DNA from: Chloroflexota bacterium | GTDB lineage: Bacteria; Chloroflexota; Dehalococcoidia; Lucifugimonadales; JACQOS01 | Assembly (NCBI GenBank): GCA_016202425.1 | Contig: JACQOS010000213.1 | Location: 1 to 32,186 of the forward strand | Direction of reading: 5' to 3' | Length of the DNA stretch: 32,186 bases | Part shown: positions 11,725 through 32,186 of the stretch, in pieces | Numbering within the stretch: the stretch's first letter is position 1 | How the letters are laid out: each line of letters starts with the position of its first letter | Program-made: the position numbers and the translations under genes | Notes under the pieces: generated by a model | Databases searched by the model: none | The model's input: only the letters and a program-made list of their open reading frames with translations | What the model was told of the DNA's origin: nothing

Positions 11725-12077
11725 GGGGACGCGTGGCTTCGACAGGGGAAGGCTTGGCGGAATTGCAGGCCGAGGTGCCGTCACACCTCGTAAAACAGGC
11801 GGCAAAAGAGTAACTGGCGAGCCTCAACTCGCACTGGCTGCCTAAAGCGCGGCCACGTCCGCTCCTCCGTCCCCCGAACGGAGGAACCGGGCGCCATTAA
11901 GTCGGGGTGCGGCTGCCCTGGCGCCGAGAGGGGCCGCTTAAGAGCATCGGCTGGCTGGGCTTCTTCGCCGCCGGCGGAGGGGGAGCCTGGCGAGAACTCA
12001 AGCACCGGCTAAGCCTGTAGCATATTCCAGCGAGGCCTCTTCTGGACGGGGGGTTCGACTCCCCCCCGTCTCCACCA
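11725..12077 (+). ncRNA. ssrA: Transfer-messenger RNA (tmRNA)
   Basis: GGGGACGCGTGGCTTCGACAGG 5' end and GGTTCGACTCCCCCCCGTCTCCACCA 3' end. Acceptor GGGGACG/CGTCTCC has the G3-U70 alanine identity pair. Tag ORF ends ...GEPQLALAA-stop. Confidence 0.95.
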
Positions 12078-12739: not shown

Positions 12740-13775
12740 CGGGGTGTCTGGTTGGCGGGGCGGTCGGGGATGCGCTCGGCCTGCCGCTGGAGGGCATACC
12801 GCCGCAGCGTGCTCGCAAGTTCCGGCGATCGCCGCTGCGGCATGCGCTGGTCGGCCGCTGGGGCATGGTGTCCGACGATACCGAGCATGCGGCCATGACC
12901 GCCGCCGCGCTGGCGGTCACAGCCGGGGAGCCTTTTCTTTTCACCCGCAGACTGGCGCGATCGCTGCGCGGGTGGCTGGCCAGCCTGCCGGCGGGCTGTG
13001 GTCTGGCCACCGGGCGCGCCATCCTAAAGCTGTGGCTGGGTTTTCCGCCGCAGAGGAGCGGCGTCTGGTCGGCTGGCAATGGGCCGGCGATGCGGGCCGC
13101 GGTGATCGGGGTTGCGTGGGGCGACCAGCCGCAGCAGACGTTGGACTTGGTCCGCGCCAGTAGTGTGCTGACTCATCGCGACCCGAAGGCGACCGTAGGT
13201 GCCCATGCGGTGGCGCTGGCCGCATGGCAGGCCGCGCAAGGGGTGTGCGACCCGGTGGCCCTGGGTGAGACTTTGCGTGCCGACCACGGCGGCGTGGCAG
13301 AGCCGCTGCTGGAGTTGATCGAACGGGCGGTCGCGTCGGCAGACGCGCGGCAGTCGACGCCTGAGTTCTGTCACGCGCTTTGCGGCAAGGGTGGGGTCAC
13401 CGGCTTCATCGATCACACGGTCGCGGTCGCGATGCATGCCTGGCGCGCCTTTCCCGAAGACTACCGGCAGGCAGTCGAAGGCGCCGTGGCGTGCGGTGGC
13501 GACACCGATACGCTCGCCGCGGTGGTGGGAGGCATCGTTGGCGCAAGAGTCGGGGTGGCAGGCATCCCGATGGGCTGGTGCCAGGGCGTCAGGGACTGGC
13601 CGCGCTCCCTCGGCTATCTGACGCGACTGGCTGCGGTGCTGGCCAGCAGCCGGTCGCTGGGGCAGCCGGTGGTCCCACCACGCGCCGTCTGGCTGTTCTG
13701 CTTCGTGCGCAACCTGGTCTTTCTGGCGATTGTGCTCGTCCACGGCTTCCGGCGCTTGTTGCCGCCTTACTGAGC

Positions 13776-13886
13776 CAACCTTCGACCCCCGTCCCCCTTC
13801 CCTTCACCAGGTTCAGGGCAGGTTCCAGAACCCCGCCAGAGGGGGCTCGGCCCCCTCTGGACTCCCCTTTTTTCCGCAGCCTGCTA
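13776..13886 (-). repeat. MITE-like repeat copy 2 (distal end truncated)
   Basis: Reverse complement TAGCAGGCTGCGGAAAAAAGGGGAGTCCAGAGGGGGCCGAGCCCCCTCTGGCGGGGTTCTGG...AAGGGGGACGGGGGTCGAAGGTT. Homology stops about 3 bp after the ADP-ribosylglycohydrolase stop codon. Confidence 0.75.
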
Positions 13887-15149
13887 GGGGCGCTGAAGGT
13901 GCTGGCGGACGAAGGCCTCTTCCTGCTCCCGGGTGTGCAGTTGGCCGTCCAGACGGGCGTCCCGAAGGGCCTCCAGGAGGGCTCCCACCCGAGGCCCCTG
14001 GGGAACGCCCAGACGCGCGAGGTCGTCTCCCGTGAGGAGAGGCCGGACGTGCCGGTCCTCATCCACGTAGCGCAGGAGATGCCGGCGGGCTTCTCCGGTG
14101 GCCAAGGCGGCGACGACCTGGACGGCCTCCAGGGCGTAGCCTCGCAGCCTCCGGTACACGGCTGCCGGGGAGGTCTCCTGGGCTAGAGCAGGGGCATCGT
14201 GCCGGAGGGCCACGGTGTCGCGCACGAGCTTGGCCTGGCGGGGGGGCAGGTTGAGGCGCAGGATGAGCCCTTCCACGGGACCAGGGCGGCCGACTGCCGG
14301 AGGGCTGACCCCCAGGCCAAAGGCCAGCACGCCCAGATAGTGGGGCGGGCGAAGGGGAAAGCCGGAGCCTGCCAGGAGCGCCAGGGCATCCCCCAGGGCC
14401 CGGGAGTCAGGCAGGACGGGTTGAATGGCCGCTAGGACCCCCAGCTCCGCTGCCCGAGTCAGGGCTTGAGGCGCGTGAGGTTCGTTGAACACCAGGCTGA
14501 GTTCGCGCCGGAGGCGGTCTGGGCTGATGGTGTCCAGGAAGGACAGGTCCCGTCGCAAGAGGGTGAGCGTTTGGGGCTCCAGGCGGAAAGAGAGGCGCTG
14601 CTCATAACGGATGGCGCGGAGGATGCGGGTCGCGTCGTCCTGGAAGCTGGCGGCGTGCAGGACACGGACGAGCCTGGCGGCCATGTCGCCCTGCCCGCCC
14701 GTGGGGTCCAGGAGCCGGGCAGGGGCTGGGACCAGGCGCAGCGCCATGGCATTGATGGTGAAGTCGCGGCGTCGCAGGTCTTCCAGGGTGGTCGCGGGGC
14801 GAACGGTGGGCAAGGCCCCTGGGCGACGGTAGGTCTCGGAGCGGGCGGTGGCGATGTCCACGCGGTGGTCCGTCAGCGCGAGCTTGACGGTCCCGAACTG
14901 AGAGCGGGCCACTACCTGGGCCCCGGAGGCCTCGGCCAGGGCAAGGCCATAGGCGCCGGCGTCGCCCTCCACCACGAGGTCCAGCTCAGGGATGGCGAGT
15001 CCCAGGAGGAGGTCCCGAACGGCACCCCCGGCGGCATAGAGGGGCAGGTGGCGCTCGCGGGCAAGGCGGACGGCCTGGGCCAGGAAAGCGGCGATGGGCC
15101 CGGGAACGCTGGCCGCCAGGCGGGCACGTAACTCTCCGGCACGCGGCAT
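13884..15149 (-). CDS. cca: CCA tRNA nucleotidyltransferase / poly(A) polymerase family
   Basis: LYAAGGAVRDLLLG, ELDLVVEGDA, HRVDIATARSETY, RRRDFTINAMAL, DDATRILRAIRYEQRLSF. Real start ATG 15149; the ORF-track extension to 16319 is antisense to rnc/ftsY. Confidence 0.92.
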   Translation of the reverse strand: MPRAGELRARLAASVPGPIAAFLAQAVRLARERHLPLYAAGGAVRDLLLGLAIPELDLVVEGDAGAYGLALAEASGAQVVARSQFGTVKLALTDHRVDIATARSETYRRPGALPTVRPATTLEDLRRRDFTINAMALRLVPAPARLLDPTGGQGDMAARLVRVLHAASFQDDATRILRAIRYEQRLSFRLEPQTLTLLRRDLSFLDTISPDRLRRELSLVFNEPHAPQALTRAAELGVLAAIQPVLPDSRALGDALALLAGSGFPLRPPHYLGVLAFGLGVSPPAVGRPGPVEGLILRLNLPPRQAKLVRDTVALRHDAPALAQETSPAAVYRRLRGYALEAVQVVAALATGEARRHLLRYVDEDRHVRPLLTGDDLARLGVPQGPRVGALLEALRDARLDGQLHTREQEEAFVRQHLQRP

Positions 15150-15188
15150 GGCGCCATTGTACCGGCGTGGCGGACTGCCAACAACGCG

Positions 15189-15194
15189 TATAAT
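15189..15194 (+). promoter_or_regulatory. -10 box TATAAT immediately upstream of rnc
   Basis: Only 9 nt separate TATAAT from the GTG start at 15204. Confidence 0.5.
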
Positions 15195-15203
15195 GGAAGC
15201 GCC

Positions 15204-15899
15204 GTGGCGACGAGAACGCTGGAAGATGCCCTGGGCGTGCGGTTCCACGACCGCGCGGTCCTCCAGGAGGCGCTCAGCCACTCGTCCTACGCCAACGAAC
15301 ATCCCCAGGAAGGAAAGGCCAACGAGCGGTTGGAGTTCCTGGGAGATGCGCTCCTGGGCCTGGTGGTCGCCCAGGAGCTGTACCGGCGTTTGCCGGACCT
15401 GGACGAGGGGTCGCTGACGGACCTGCGTTCTCAAGTGGTCCGGGGGGAGACGCTGGCCACGGTCGCCAGACGCATGGGCCTCGGCCAGCACCTGCTCCTG
15501 GGCCAGGGGGAGGCGGCCAGCGGTGGCAGGGATCGGGACTCCAACCTGGCGGGCGTGCTGGAGGCGGTGGCCGGGGCTGCGCTCGTGGACAGAGGCTATG
15601 GGGAGGCTCGCCGGTTCGTGCTGCGGGCGCTGGCCCCTGAGCTGCGCCGGGCGGGAAGGGCCGGTGTCCCCCAGGACCCCAAGTCGCGGCTCCAGGAGAC
15701 CCTTCAGAGGCGGGGGACCGGTGCACCCCGGTACGAGGTGCTCCGCACGGAGGGGTCCGGGCACCGGCCTGAGTTCCGGGTACAGGCGGTGGTGGATGGA
15801 AGGGTGCTGGGTACGGGGAGGGGCAGGCGGAAGGTGGACGCCGAGCGTCAGGCTGCCAGGGAGGCCCTGGCGGCGCTCGCCCAGCATCCGGAGCGATGA
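15204..15899 (+). CDS. rnc: Ribonuclease III
   Basis: ALSHSSYANEH, NERLEFLGDALLGLVV, NLAGVLEAVAGAALVDRGY, C-terminal dsRBD (DPKSRLQETLQRRG...GRGRRKVDAERQAAREAL). Confidence 0.95.
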   Translation: MATRTLEDALGVRFHDRAVLQEALSHSSYANEHPQEGKANERLEFLGDALLGLVVAQELYRRLPDLDEGSLTDLRSQVVRGETLATVARRMGLGQHLLLGQGEAASGGRDRDSNLAGVLEAVAGAALVDRGYGEARRFVLRALAPELRRAGRAGVPQDPKSRLQETLQRRGTGAPRYEVLRTEGSGHRPEFRVQAVVDGRVLGTGRGRRKVDAERQAAREALAALAQHPER

Positions 15900-15936
15900 T
15901 GGTATGATGCACCCCCTGGCGAGAGGACGGGAACGC

Positions 15937-16914
15937 ATGGGGATTGCCAGCCTGAGGGAGCGGATAGAGCAGGGGGTGCGCCGCACCCGAGAGGCCTGGT
16001 TTGGCCGGGCGGCCGGGCTCTTCCAGGGCCCCGCCCTGTCGGCTGCCACCTGGGAAGAGCTGGAGGAGACGCTTATCGCCGCCGACGTGGGCGTGGCGAC
16101 CACGGACGCTCTCCTGGAGCAGGCCAGGAGGCGTCTGGAGGGCCGCCGAGAGGGCTTGGGCCCTTTGGCTGCCTTGGGGGCGCTCAAAGAGGAGATGGTC
16201 TCCCTTCTCGGGCCGGGGGACGAGCGGGTAAAGGGGCTGCTAGAGCCGGACCGCGGGCGGCCGGGGCCCCTGGCGGTGCTGGTGATGGGGGTGAACGGGT
16301 CCGGGAAGACGACGAGCATCGCGAAGCTGGCCCGGTACTACCAGGCCCAGGGCCGGCAGGTGATCCTGGGGGCGGCGGACACGTTCCGTGCGGCGGGCAT
16401 CGAGCAGCTTGAGGTGTGGGGCCATCGGCTGGGCATTCCCGTGGTGGCCCACCGGCATGGAGGCGACCCGGCGGCGGTGGCCTTCGACACCTTCCAGGCT
16501 GGCAAGGCCCGGGGCGCCGACGTGGTGATCATCGACACCGCCGGGCGTCTGCATACGAAGACCCCGCTGATGGAGGAGCTGAAGAAGGTCCGGCGGGTGC
16601 TGGGGAGGCTGGACCCCGAGGCCCCCCACGCGGTGTTGCTGGTGCTGGACGCCTCCACGGGCCAGAACGGGCTGGCCCAGGCCCGGGCGTTCACGGAGGC
16701 CCTGGGCTGCCATGGGGCTATCGTGGCGAAGCTGGACGGGACGGCCAAGGGGGGTGTGCTCTTCAGCATCCGGCGGGAGCTGGGCCTGCCCGTGCTGTTT
16801 GTGGGGACGGGGGAAACGGCGGAGGACCTGGCCCCTTTTGACGCCCGGGAGTTCGTGGAGGCGCTGTTCGAGGAGAGGGGGCAGGATACGGCCCAGAGGG
16901 ACGGGGGCGCGTAG
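15937..16914 (+). CDS. ftsY: Signal recognition particle receptor FtsY
   Basis: VMGVNGSGKTTSIAKLA, GAADTFRAAGIEQLEVW, IIDTAGRLHTK, LVLDASTGQNGLAQA, AKLDGTAKGG. ATG 15937 with upstream purine-rich RBS. Confidence 0.95.
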   Translation: MGIASLRERIEQGVRRTREAWFGRAAGLFQGPALSAATWEELEETLIAADVGVATTDALLEQARRRLEGRREGLGPLAALGALKEEMVSLLGPGDERVKGLLEPDRGRPGPLAVLVMGVNGSGKTTSIAKLARYYQAQGRQVILGAADTFRAAGIEQLEVWGHRLGIPVVAHRHGGDPAAVAFDTFQAGKARGADVVIIDTAGRLHTKTPLMEELKKVRRVLGRLDPEAPHAVLLVLDASTGQNGLAQARAFTEALGCHGAIVAKLDGTAKGGVLFSIRRELGLPVLFVGTGETAEDLAPFDAREFVEALFEERGQDTAQRDGGA

Positions 16915-21796: not shown

Positions 21797-22567
21797 GTGA
21801 GGCTGCGGGACCGGGTGAGCATCGTCACCGGGGCGGGCAGCGGCATAGGGAGGGCAGTAGCCCTGGGCCTGGCTGGAGAGGGGTCGCGGGTAGTGCTGGT
21901 GGGCAGGACCCCTGGGCCGTTGGAAGAGACGAAGCGGCAGGTCGAGGTCTCTGGGGGAGCGGCGCTCGTCTGCCCAGGCGACGTGGGTGACCCTCGGGCG
22001 GTCCGAGCCACCGTCGAGGCGACGCTTCAGGCCTACGGGCGTGTGGACGTGCTGGTGAACAACGCCGGCTACAACATCCCCCAACGGGGCATCCTGGAGA
22101 TGGCTCCTGAGCAGATCGAAGGGGTCGTGCGGGGCAACCTGACGGGGAGCCTGCTGTTCATCCAGGCGGTGCTGCCCGCAATGCTCAAGGCCAGGGCGGG
22201 GACCGTCGTGAACGTCTCCTCCATAGCGGCGAAGCGCCCTGCCCTGGTCTCGGGCGCGGCCTACAGCGCGGCCAAGGCGGGGCTCATCACCATGACGCGA
22301 GTGCTGAACCTGGAGCTGCACAACACGGGGGTGCGGGTGTGCGTGGTGATTCCTGGGGCGACGGACACCCCGTTGATGGACAAGCGCGTGGCGCCTCCCT
22401 CCAAGGAGGCGAGGGCGGCGATGCTGACCCCTGACGATGTGGCCGAGGCGATCTTGCTGGCGGTGCTGATGCCGGGGCGCGCTCTTGTGGAGGAGGTCGT
22501 CATCCGGCCCACGGTGCAGGTGGAGTTCCGCCGCCAGGTGCCGCCCCCGGCGGCCAGCGGGGCATAG
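21797..22567 (+). CDS. SDR family oxidoreductase (FabG-like)
   Basis: SIVTGAGSGIGRAVALGLA, DVLVNNAGYN, NVSSIAAKRP, AAYSAAKAGLITMTR. Confidence 0.92.
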   Translation: MRLRDRVSIVTGAGSGIGRAVALGLAGEGSRVVLVGRTPGPLEETKRQVEVSGGAALVCPGDVGDPRAVRATVEATLQAYGRVDVLVNNAGYNIPQRGILEMAPEQIEGVVRGNLTGSLLFIQAVLPAMLKARAGTVVNVSSIAAKRPALVSGAAYSAAKAGLITMTRVLNLELHNTGVRVCVVIPGATDTPLMDKRVAPPSKEARAAMLTPDDVAEAILLAVLMPGRALVEEVVIRPTVQVEFRRQVPPPAASGA

Positions 22568-22713
22568 CAGGTTGGTGAAAAAGGAGGAGTCCAGAGGGGC
22601 GCAGCCCCTTTGGCGGGGGTCTGGGGGTGTCCCCCAGATATAATTCCTACCCCCTTCCTGGCCAGGAAGGGGGACAGGGGGATGGTCGAAAGGTTTTTTC
22701 AACACCCTGATAG
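22565..22713 (+). repeat. MITE-like repeat copy 3 (complete)
   Basis: Core 22568-22709 begins CAGGTTGGTGAAAAAGG and ends TTTTTTCAACACCCTG (imperfect inverted ends), flanked by ATAG at 22564-22567 and 22710-22713. Internal hairpins AGGGGC-GCA-GCCCCT, TCTGGGGG-TGT-CCCCCAGA and palindrome CCCCCTTCCTGGCCAGGAAGGGGG. Confidence 0.85.
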
Positions 22714-29194: not shown

Positions 29195-32095
29195 GTGACG
29201 GAGCCCATCGCCATCACCATTGACGGGCGGGCGGTCCAGGCCCGCCCTGGCTCCATGGTGCTGGAGGCGGCCATGGAGGCAGGGGTCTACATCCCCTATC
29301 TGTGCTATCACCCGGGCATGAAGCCCTTCGCCGCCTGTCGGTTGTGCGTGGTCCAGGAGGAGGTGGAGGCAGAGGTGGAGAGGGACGGCCAGAAGGTGAA
29401 GGAGAGGCAACTACGGCCCCCCTCGGCCTCCTGCACGCTTCCGGTGCGTCCCGGCATGGCCGTGCGTACCGTCACCGAGACGGTCCGGCAACTGCAACGG
29501 GGGGTGATGGAGATGCTCATCTCCGAGCACCCCCACGGCTGCCTCACCTGCCACAGGATCGAGCTGTGTGGCCCCGAGGATATCTGCCTGCGGCACGTGT
29601 CGGTGAACGACCGATGTGTCATCTGCCCCAAGAACGAGCGGTGTGAGCTGAAGGACACGGTCCGGTACCTGGGGATGGAACTGACCTCTTCCTTGTCGTA
29701 CCAGACGCGGGGTCTGCCCATCGAGGCGGCTGACCCGTTCTACGACCGGGACTACAACCTGTGCATCGTGTGCGGTCGTTGCGTGCGGGTGTGCGAGGAG
29801 GTGCGCGGGGACAACGCCATCACGTTCACCGAGCGGGCAGGGCAGGCGCTGGTGGGGACGTCCCGGGGGACGTCGCTCTTGGAATCCGGATGCGAGTTCT
29901 GCGGGGCCTGTCTCGATGTCTGCCCCGTGGGGGCGCTGGTGGAGAGGGAGCACAAGTGGGACAAGGCAGTGCGGGTCGTGCGGACGGTCTGCCCCCACTG
30001 CCCGGTGGGGTGCCAGTTGAACCTGGAGATCAACAAGAGGGAGAAGGTGGTCCGGGCCATTCCTGAGATCAAGGCTCCGGCCAACCGCGGCCAGGCGTGT
30101 TTCAGGGGAAAGTTTGGCCTGGAGTACGTGAACCACAAGGACCGGCTGAGGAGGCCGCTGGTCCGCAAGGACGGGCAGCTCCAGGAGGCCACGTGGGAGG
30201 AGGCGATGGCGCTCGTGGCGGAGCGGCTTGCCCGCTACCGCGGGAGCCAGTTCGCAGCCGTGGCGTCAGCGCGGGGAACGAACGAGACGGCGTACCTGCT
30301 CCAGAAGTTCGCGCGCGTGGCCATGGGGAGCAACAACGTCTGCGTGGACTCCGACACCCGGCCGGCCCTGGCCAGGACGCTGGCGGACTCCCTGGGCTAC
30401 GCTGCCGCCACCAACACCATCTGGGAGCTGGAGAGGGCAGGCTGCATCCTCGCGGTCAATAGCAATACCACGGAGGAGCACAACGTGGTGGCGGTGCCCG
30501 TGAAGCGGGCTGTCAAGGGTGGCGCCAGGCTCATCGTGGTGGACCCTCGGGAGGTGGAGCTTACCCGCTATGCCCATCTCTGGCTGCGGCCCAGGCCCGG
30601 GACGACGCTGGCCCTGCTCGCGGGAATGTTGCGCGTCGTTCTCGACGCGGGGCTGGCCGACAAAGCGTTCCTCCAGGAGCGGTGCGATGGTCTGGAAGCG
30701 TTGCGGGCGTCCGTGGGGCCCTACGACCTTGAGGCCGTGGCCAGCGCTACGGGCGTGCCAGGGGAGGCGATCGGGGAAGCGGCGCGCCTCTACGCCAAGG
30801 GGGGGCCGTCGGCCATCCTCTACGCCCTGGACAACGTGCCGCCCGAGGATCAGGAGGCCGAGGTCGTGGCCCTGGCGGACCTGGCGCTGGCGACGTGGAA
30901 CCTGGGGAAGCCCTCCAGCGGGCTGTATCCCCTGCGTCACGGCACCAATGAGCAGGGCGCTTTGGACGTGGGATGCGCCCCGGACCTGCTGCCAGGCTAC
31001 GCTCATCTGGACGACGGGCACGCGCGGCGGCGGCTGGAGGAGTCCTGGAGAGCTGCCGTGCCGGAGACACCGGGCCTGGGCCTTGGTGCGGCCCTCCTGG
31101 CGGCGCGGGAGGGCAGGCTGAAGGCGATGGTGCTGATGGGAGATAGCGCCAGCTACTCCAGCGGAGAGGTGGGGGACGGCTACGAAGCCCTGGACCGTCT
31201 CGAGTTCCTGGTGGTGCACGATGCGTTTCTGGGCGAGGCGGCCCAGCGGGCCCACGTCGTGCTCCCCGCCACCACGTTTGCGGAGGACGAGGGCACGTAC
31301 ACCAACCTGGAGCGGCGCGTCCAGCTCCTGGTCAAGGCGCTCACGCCGAGGAACAGCGAGGCAAGGCCCGCCTCTTGGATGGTGTGCGACCTCGCCCGGC
31401 GCATGGGGGCGAAAGGGTTCGACTTCCTGGGCCCCGCCGAGGTGTTCGATGAGATCGCGGCCGTTGCCCCTAGCTATCGGGGCATCTCCCACGAGCGGCT
31501 GCGGCGAGAGGCCGTGCTCACCCTCCGCCCGGACCCGCTGGACCCCCTCCCTACCCAGTACCTCTACTCGGACCGGGTGTCCCAGGGGCTCCTGTGGCCA
31601 TGCCCGGAGCCTGAAGGCCCGGGGACGCCGGTCCTCTATGCCACTGGGTTTCCCCACGGGCGGGCGCGGCTCAGGCCGCTGCCGCCCCCTCGGCCCCGGG
31701 AGGCGGAGCCGTTGCTGCTGGTCCCGGGCCGGGTGCTGGCCCAGGAGGACCGGGAGATGGAGGTGGCGCAGGCCGACGGTGTGAACCAGGTCCGGCGGGA
31801 CGAGTGGGTGGAGCTCCATCCTGAGGATGCCGCGGCCCGGGGCATCAGCCCGGGCGACCTGGTGGAGGTTCTGTCGGGGAGGCAGCGCCTTCGGGGAATC
31901 GCCGTGCTCCGGGAGGGGGCGCACCGAGGGGTGGTGTCCGTCACCACCCTCTTCGGAGAGTTGGCCACCAGGCTCCAGGCCAGCGAGGCCCCGGACCCCA
32001 TGGCCAGCGTCCCCGGGCTGGTCATTGCGCCGGCACGGATGGAGAAGCTCGGCGCGGGCCCCCGCCTCCGGGCGGCGGGCGGGCCATCCCCATAG
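29195..32095 (+). CDS. NuoG / formate dehydrogenase alpha-like Fe-S molybdopterin subunit
   Basis: N-terminal 2Fe-2S (YLCYHPGMKPFAACRLCVV), two ferredoxin clusters (CIVCGRCVRVC, CEFCGACLDVC), CPHCPVGCQL, and a molybdopterin-binding body with a dinucleotide-binding C-terminus. Confidence 0.9.
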   Translation: MTEPIAITIDGRAVQARPGSMVLEAAMEAGVYIPYLCYHPGMKPFAACRLCVVQEEVEAEVERDGQKVKERQLRPPSASCTLPVRPGMAVRTVTETVRQLQRGVMEMLISEHPHGCLTCHRIELCGPEDICLRHVSVNDRCVICPKNERCELKDTVRYLGMELTSSLSYQTRGLPIEAADPFYDRDYNLCIVCGRCVRVCEEVRGDNAITFTERAGQALVGTSRGTSLLESGCEFCGACLDVCPVGALVEREHKWDKAVRVVRTVCPHCPVGCQLNLEINKREKVVRAIPEIKAPANRGQACFRGKFGLEYVNHKDRLRRPLVRKDGQLQEATWEEAMALVAERLARYRGSQFAAVASARGTNETAYLLQKFARVAMGSNNVCVDSDTRPALARTLADSLGYAAATNTIWELERAGCILAVNSNTTEEHNVVAVPVKRAVKGGARLIVVDPREVELTRYAHLWLRPRPGTTLALLAGMLRVVLDAGLADKAFLQERCDGLEALRASVGPYDLEAVASATGVPGEAIGEAARLYAKGGPSAILYALDNVPPEDQEAEVVALADLALATWNLGKPSSGLYPLRHGTNEQGALDVGCAPDLLPGYAHLDDGHARRRLEESWRAAVPETPGLGLGAALLAAREGRLKAMVLMGDSASYSSGEVGDGYEALDRLEFLVVHDAFLGEAAQRAHVVLPATTFAEDEGTYTNLERRVQLLVKALTPRNSEARPASWMVCDLARRMGAKGFDFLGPAEVFDEIAAVAPSYRGISHERLRREAVLTLRPDPLDPLPTQYLYSDRVSQGLLWPCPEPEGPGTPVLYATGFPHGRARLRPLPPPRPREAEPLLLVPGRVLAQEDREMEVAQADGVNQVRRDEWVELHPEDAAARGISPGDLVEVLSGRQRLRGIAVLREGAHRGVVSVTTLFGELATRLQASEAPDPMASVPGLVIAPARMEKLGAGPRLRAAGGPSP

Positions 32096-32186
32096 CAGGT
32101 TGGTGAAAAAGGAGGAGTCCAGTCCCGACTCGTCGGGATTGGCGGGGGTCTGGGGGTGTCCCCCAGATATAATTCTTACCCCCTTC
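32093..32186 (+). repeat. MITE-like repeat copy 4 (partial, cut by window end)
   Basis: TAGCAGGTTGGTGAAAAAGGAGGAGTCCAG + TCCCGACTCGTCGGGA + TTGGCGGGGGTCTGGGGGTGTCCCCCAGATATAATTCTTACCCCCTTC. Identical to copy 3 outside the hairpin except one base. Confidence 0.85.

Follow-up and report, generated by a model that had tools for sequence, protein, structure and literature searches.

The repeat that borders the stop codons of several genes in this genome is very likely a non-autonomous MITE that duplicates a YTAR target site. Insertion at a stop codon would copy the stop of the host and leave the protein unchanged, and insertions elsewhere in genes or in promoters would be lost by selection. The excess of insertions at stop codons is mostly the product of the tolerance of gene 3′ ends and of a stop-like target motif; any further preference for stop codons, beyond the motif and the 3′ end, is small.

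Copies of the repeat and their structure

The window is the whole stretch of 32,186 nucleotides analysed here, which is contig C174 of an assembly of 1.96 Mb in 213 contigs (genome G000). Direct reading and open reading frame (ORF) calls confirmed the original prediction that cca, the SDR gene and the nuoG-like gene all have their in-frame stop codon in the TAG of TAGCAGG. The fourth copy had been placed 35 bp past the stop codon of the thrB-like gene: it does lie outside this gene, and the measured distance from the TAA is 34 bp. The features of the window are as follows.

22564-22567, + strand: left target-site duplication ATAG, identical to the right 4-mer and containing the TAG stop codon of the SDR gene
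22568-22709, + strand: complete MITE-like element with inverted ends CAGGTTGGTGAAAAA ... TTTTTTCAACACCCTG and three internal GC-rich hairpins (fold z = -2.4)
22710-22713, + strand: right target-site duplication ATAG, the same 4-mer as on the left
21797-22567, + strand: SDR gene, 256 aa (ORF call, PF00106), with its stop codon inside the duplication
13884-13887, - strand: CTAG at the element end, holding the TAG stop codon of cca (13884-13886; direct reading)
13774-13883, - strand: element copy whose first end is good (TIR 13869-13883) and whose far end is decayed or truncated
13884-16319, - strand: cca-holding ORF, 811 aa, with a PolyA_pol head at residues 427-552 (ORF call)
32093-32186, + strand: element copy at the nuoG-like stop codon, clipped by the contig end, with the first hairpin replaced by TCCCGACTCGTCGGGA (32123-32138)
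29195-32095, + strand: NuoG/formate-dehydrogenase-like molybdopterin oxidoreductase, 966 aa (ORF call)
1-50, - strand: element copy that starts 34 bp beyond the thrB-like stop codon, clipped by the contig end
85-1119, - strand: GHMP-kinase (thrB-like) ORF with the stop codon TAA at 85-87, away from the element (ORF call)

Among named genomes, the nuoG-like protein has its nearest relatives in Chloroflexi MAGs from groundwater and in one labelled SAR202. The window also contains a tmRNA (11725-12077, + strand; tag peptide GEPQLALAA) and a tRNA-Pro(CGG) (1166-1241, + strand).

Alignment of the copies gave a non-coding, MITE-like element of approximately 150 bp with inverted ends of approximately 18 bp. 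One end reads TAGCAGG(C/T)TG(C/G)TGAAAAAG and the other TAGCAGGGTGTTGAAAAACC, and three GC-rich hairpins lie between them. The repeat proper starts at CAGG; the bases that precede it in TAGCAGG belong to the target-site duplication. The ends were searched for with an 18-base pattern (TAGCAGGNTGNTGAAAAA, three or fewer mismatches) and the reversed pattern was used as a control: 170 ends were found in G000 and 0 with the control. The complete copies (n = 32) are mostly 127-269 bp in length and have symmetric ends. As in bacterial MITEs, the repeat is short, non-coding and multicopy and possesses terminal inverted repeats. The same ends are present at high copy number in approximately eight members of the same order (for example, 321 ends in G012 and 280 in G029), and the counts in most other members are near the control level.

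Several further observations were made on individual copies. A 16-nt palindrome, TCCCGACNNGTCGGGA (NN is variable), takes the place of the first or the last hairpin in different copies, and in relatives it is found at the tip of unrelated hairpins. The genome has 133 such sites, and the reversed control gives 0; examples are at 32123-32138 of the window, at loci L089, L014, L062, L079 and L129, at L245 of G029 and at L274 of G012. This palindrome looks like a swappable hairpin-tip module. The copy at L018/L023 (G000, contig C141, 12780-12971) is almost perfectly palindromic, and its two flanks likewise form an inverted pair; it is possibly a fold-back assembly artefact at a contig end. Contig C28 (L005/L032, positions 1-174) opens with the 3′ end of the same SDR gene (its final 30 bases or more), followed by a 93.5%-identical element, and the DNA downstream of it differs from that of the SDR copy in the window. 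The cause may be variation between strains or a switch of the assembly inside the repeat.

Target-site duplication at the element border

The original prediction regarded the TAG as part of the repeat, which would then supply the stop codon. We examined the flanks of 106 complete insertions from three genomes (29 from G000, 52 from G029 and 25 from G012); this sample comes from searches and from fetched genome stretches, selected in part because they hold elements. The genomes themselves are fragmented MAGs in which many contigs end inside element copies. The flanking 4-mers of the two ends covary as a 4-bp duplication with the consensus CTAG, or more generally YTAR. On the left, the base that follows TA agrees with the base immediately beyond the element on the right; the other side shows the same correspondence (position-wise match, p = 0.00025 for the first and p = 5e-5 for the fourth position). 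Identical flank pairs other than CTAG number 16 as compared with 4.8 in shuffles (p = 5e-5). All p-values given here assume independent insertions. CTAG is the dominant target, followed by CTAA, and the SDR copy has ATAG on both flanks. Thus, the target-site duplication expected of a bacterial MITE was found as a covariation of 4-bp YTAR flanks (p = 5e-5). It should be mentioned that the left and right 4-mers are unequal in approximately 60% of copies, which we attribute to the decay of old copies and which weakens the 4-bp call. Because the first and fourth flank positions covary, the duplication is read as YTAR, and the TAG at the element border as the host's own stop codon, copied by the insertion, rather than repeat sequence.

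Another possibility is a duplication of TA only, as in MITEs of the Tc1/mariner-IS630 type. In this case the element would bring a G at both ends and TA plus G would restore or create a TAG anywhere. Both ends read TAG in most copies and the genome has an IS630 transposase, both of which speak for this explanation. However, the bases outside TA covary across the same copy (p = 0.00025 and 5e-5), and this covariation rejects an element-borne G. Moreover, the IS630 element found (PF13358, L177) has ends that begin with TAGTAC..., not CAGGGTG..., and it was rejected as the parent of the repeat. We consider the TA-only explanation unlikely and retain the 4-bp duplication. Separately, the IS630-type transposase region at L177 (G000, contig C48, approximately 29.8-32 kb) begins exactly at the CTAG stop codon of a transposase ORF upstream of it, and an element unrelated to the repeat obeys the same stop-site logic there.

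Insertions at gene 3′ ends and the integrity of the genes

Genes were called with a simple codon-usage model trained for each genome. Among the 130 ends in G000 with usable upstream sequence, 38 are at the exact stop codon of an ORF supported by this model, and three genes enter the element in another register. At element ends directly abutted by coding sequence, an in-frame TAR is present in 40/44 cases in G000, 28/32 in G029 and 18/20 in G012, that is, in 86/96 cases in the three genomes against a chance expectation of 1/3. The predicted preference for stop codons is borne out to this extent, as an enrichment of in-frame TAG/TAA genome-wide in G000 and in two further families of this order.

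The complete insertions were then compared with two null sets. The first consists of empty sites with the identical four bases in non-coding DNA, and the second (the 3′-end null) of motif-matched sites at a stop codon or up to 60 bp downstream of it. A stop codon is occupied in 38/106 complete insertions (14/29 in G000, 15/52 in G029 and 9/25 in G012), whereas the first null gives 13.8 in total (4.7, 6.3 and 2.8, respectively); an earlier run, which included small loci, had given 14/29, 11/39 and 13/36 (G000, G029 and G012). In contrast, the 3′-end null gives 29 of 60 for the same 38. For G000, G029 and G012, it gives 9.8/17, 12.4/26 and 6.8/17, compared with 14, 15 and 9 observed (p = 0.03, 0.2 and 0.2), a mild residual excess in which G000 alone has p = 0.03. 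None of the 106 insertions in the three genomes was classed as interior to a coding sequence, even though coding DNA holds many of the motif-matched empty sites. To a first approximation, the insertions prefer, or survive at, gene 3′ ends, and their target motif is itself TAA or TAG. Because the excess is found with the first null but the observed number is near that of the 3′-end null, most of it is explained by 3′-end tolerance together with the stop-like motif.

The same stop codon can be occupied in different genomes. In orthologue pairs of G000 and G029, the element is on the stop codon in both members in 4 pairs, only in G000 in 14, only in G029 in 1 and in neither in 56 (odds ratio 16, p = 0.011; these numbers are small and come from the same partly selected stretches). 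One further orthologous stop codon is occupied in both G000 and G012. The orientation of the element is opposite in 5/5 of these shared stop codons, which favours separate insertions. A transposition machinery that recognises stop codons or gene 3′ ends in themselves, for example via terminators, supercoiling or termination complexes, would account both for the 38 insertions against 13.8 among motif-matched non-coding sites and for the 4 stop codons shared by G000 and G029 with elements in opposite orientation. However, most of the excess is gone when the 3′-end null is used (38 against 29), and conserved YTAR stop codons together with tolerant downstream DNA can account for the shared sites, which may need no more than that. 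We regard such targeting as improbable, and the stop-specific part of the original prediction is not upheld, little being left of it once motif and 3′-end position are matched. Independent re-occupation of the same stop codons across lineages beyond motif and selection, with termination sites as genuine insertion hot spots, is doubtful.

Another explanation is that the insertions truncated or re-terminated the genes, which now end early on the TAG of the element. In its favour, any ORF would stop at a frame-0 TAG on the border. The C-termini were aligned with those of relatives. The cca orthologues end at 809-839 as compared with 811 here (one further match is clipped by a contig end), and that of G035, a member of the same order, ends at the equivalent codon in CTAG without the element. 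The SDR relatives end at 245-260 as compared with 256 here. The nuoG-like orthologues mostly end at positions equivalent to 951-974, and the protein of the window (966 aa) is 12-13 aa longer, not shorter, than the four closest, which end at 953-954. None of the three proteins is shortened. In a reciprocal-best comparison of element-ended genes with G029 and G012, the alignment extends to the C-terminus for 19 orthologues that lack the element; the unaligned C-terminal lengths are identical in 13/19, none of the 19 comparisons shows truncation, and 16/19 of the element-free orthologues end in TAA or TAG (hand counts). These C-termini rule out truncation for the tested genes and make it highly improbable as an explanation of the pattern. 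Insertion at an in-frame stop codon is, as predicted, low-cost for the host gene.

The cca ORF has approximately 380 extra N-terminal residues (15190-16319, - strand), and the cca of relatives matches it only from approximately residue 380. In relatives, a separate conserved stretch corresponds to residues 1-123, and the part in between matches with many in-frame stop codons. This ORF is probably two neighbouring genes in one open frame.

It had also been suggested that the element could double as a transcription terminator. Domestication of copies as terminators, kept at gene ends for this role, would agree with their 3′-end location and with the strong internal hairpins of the complete copy, which folds well on both strands (z = -2.4 and -2.6). 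However, a scan at two elements revealed no hairpin directly followed by a T-run, as in intrinsic terminators, the fold of the cca copy is no better than that of shuffled sequences (z = -0.19), and the elements at stop codons show no clear orientation bias. Thus, a terminator role is not supported by these data and seems rather unlikely.

Proposed mechanism and related elements

We propose that a transposase acting in trans would move the MITE by cutting at YTAR (best CTAG) and duplicating those 4 bp. As YTAR contains TAA or TAG, an in-frame target inside a gene can only be its real stop codon. Insertion there would copy the stop codon to the gene-proximal side and leave the protein unchanged; therefore, such insertions would be neutral and would persist, and those elsewhere in genes or in promoters would be lost by selection. 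Approximately half of the tolerated 3′-proximal YTAR sites are stop codons, which would give the observed pattern. The observations behind this proposal are the structure of the ends, the duplication of 4 bp, the bias in reading frame, the 0 coding-interior insertions in the sample and the unchanged C-termini; we infer the transposase, past mobility and the role of selection, the last from the absence of insertions.

A full-length parent IS would have to match the end sequence CAGGGTGNTGAAAAA. Searches with PF13358, PF01609 and PF13546 in these fragmented MAGs found no transposase with matching ends: the PF01609 and PF13546 searches gave either no matches or matches without matching ends nearby. 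Long end-to-end pairs (600-2600 bp, three genomes) were considered as autonomous copies, and nearly all proved to be separate elements around ordinary genes; the one pair inspected in detail contains no transposase.

Elements of this kind are already known. MITEPsy1 of Pseudomonas syringae is a 100-bp non-coding element with 18-nt inverted ends (GGAAGGTCTGAAAAAGCC, including TGAAAAA), which duplicates 4 nt of CTAG or YTAA and is attributed to the IS5-family parent ISPsy2 (PMC3189936). The present repeat resembles it in its small non-coding body, its 18-nt inverted ends, the TGAAAAA within them and the 4-nt CTAG/YTAA duplication. MITEPsy1 differs in its few copies, its other end sequence and its known parent IS, and the available part of PMC3189936 does not describe a stop-codon bias. 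IS5 of E. coli duplicates Py-T-A-Pu, with CTAG the most common (PMC5493358). The order of target preference is the same here, where a 4-bp YTAR duplication with CTAG preferred was found, but IS5 is an autonomous IS, not a MITE, and the transposase searches found no IS5-family partner. The repeat may work like IS5-type elements, in the sense of a likeness only. In the case of BOX of Streptococcus pneumoniae, 36 genes end within the repeat, at a stop codon that it encodes, without strong evidence of truncation relative to orthologues (PMC3049150). Genes likewise end at the border of the present repeat with a similar outcome of the orthologue comparison, but the BOX stop codon is in the repeat sequence itself, not in a target duplication, and sequence and structure are unrelated. 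RUP, Correia and other TA-target MITEs (PMC2229807) are also small inverted-repeat elements with many copies, but they have TA-terminated ends and TA targets, whereas the present data favour a 4-bp duplication. The present element adds a high-copy example to an established kind, together with an explanation of its stop-codon position.

These results give a testable rule: a stop-like target motif makes the gene terminus a neutral landing site, and the target-site duplication preserves the stop codon. This would be a route to high copy number for a small transposable element in a compact GC-rich genome. For annotation, it is a warning that 'repeat-encoded' stop codons may be host stop codons. 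The rule should extend to any element that duplicates CTAG/YTAR, IS5-like or other.
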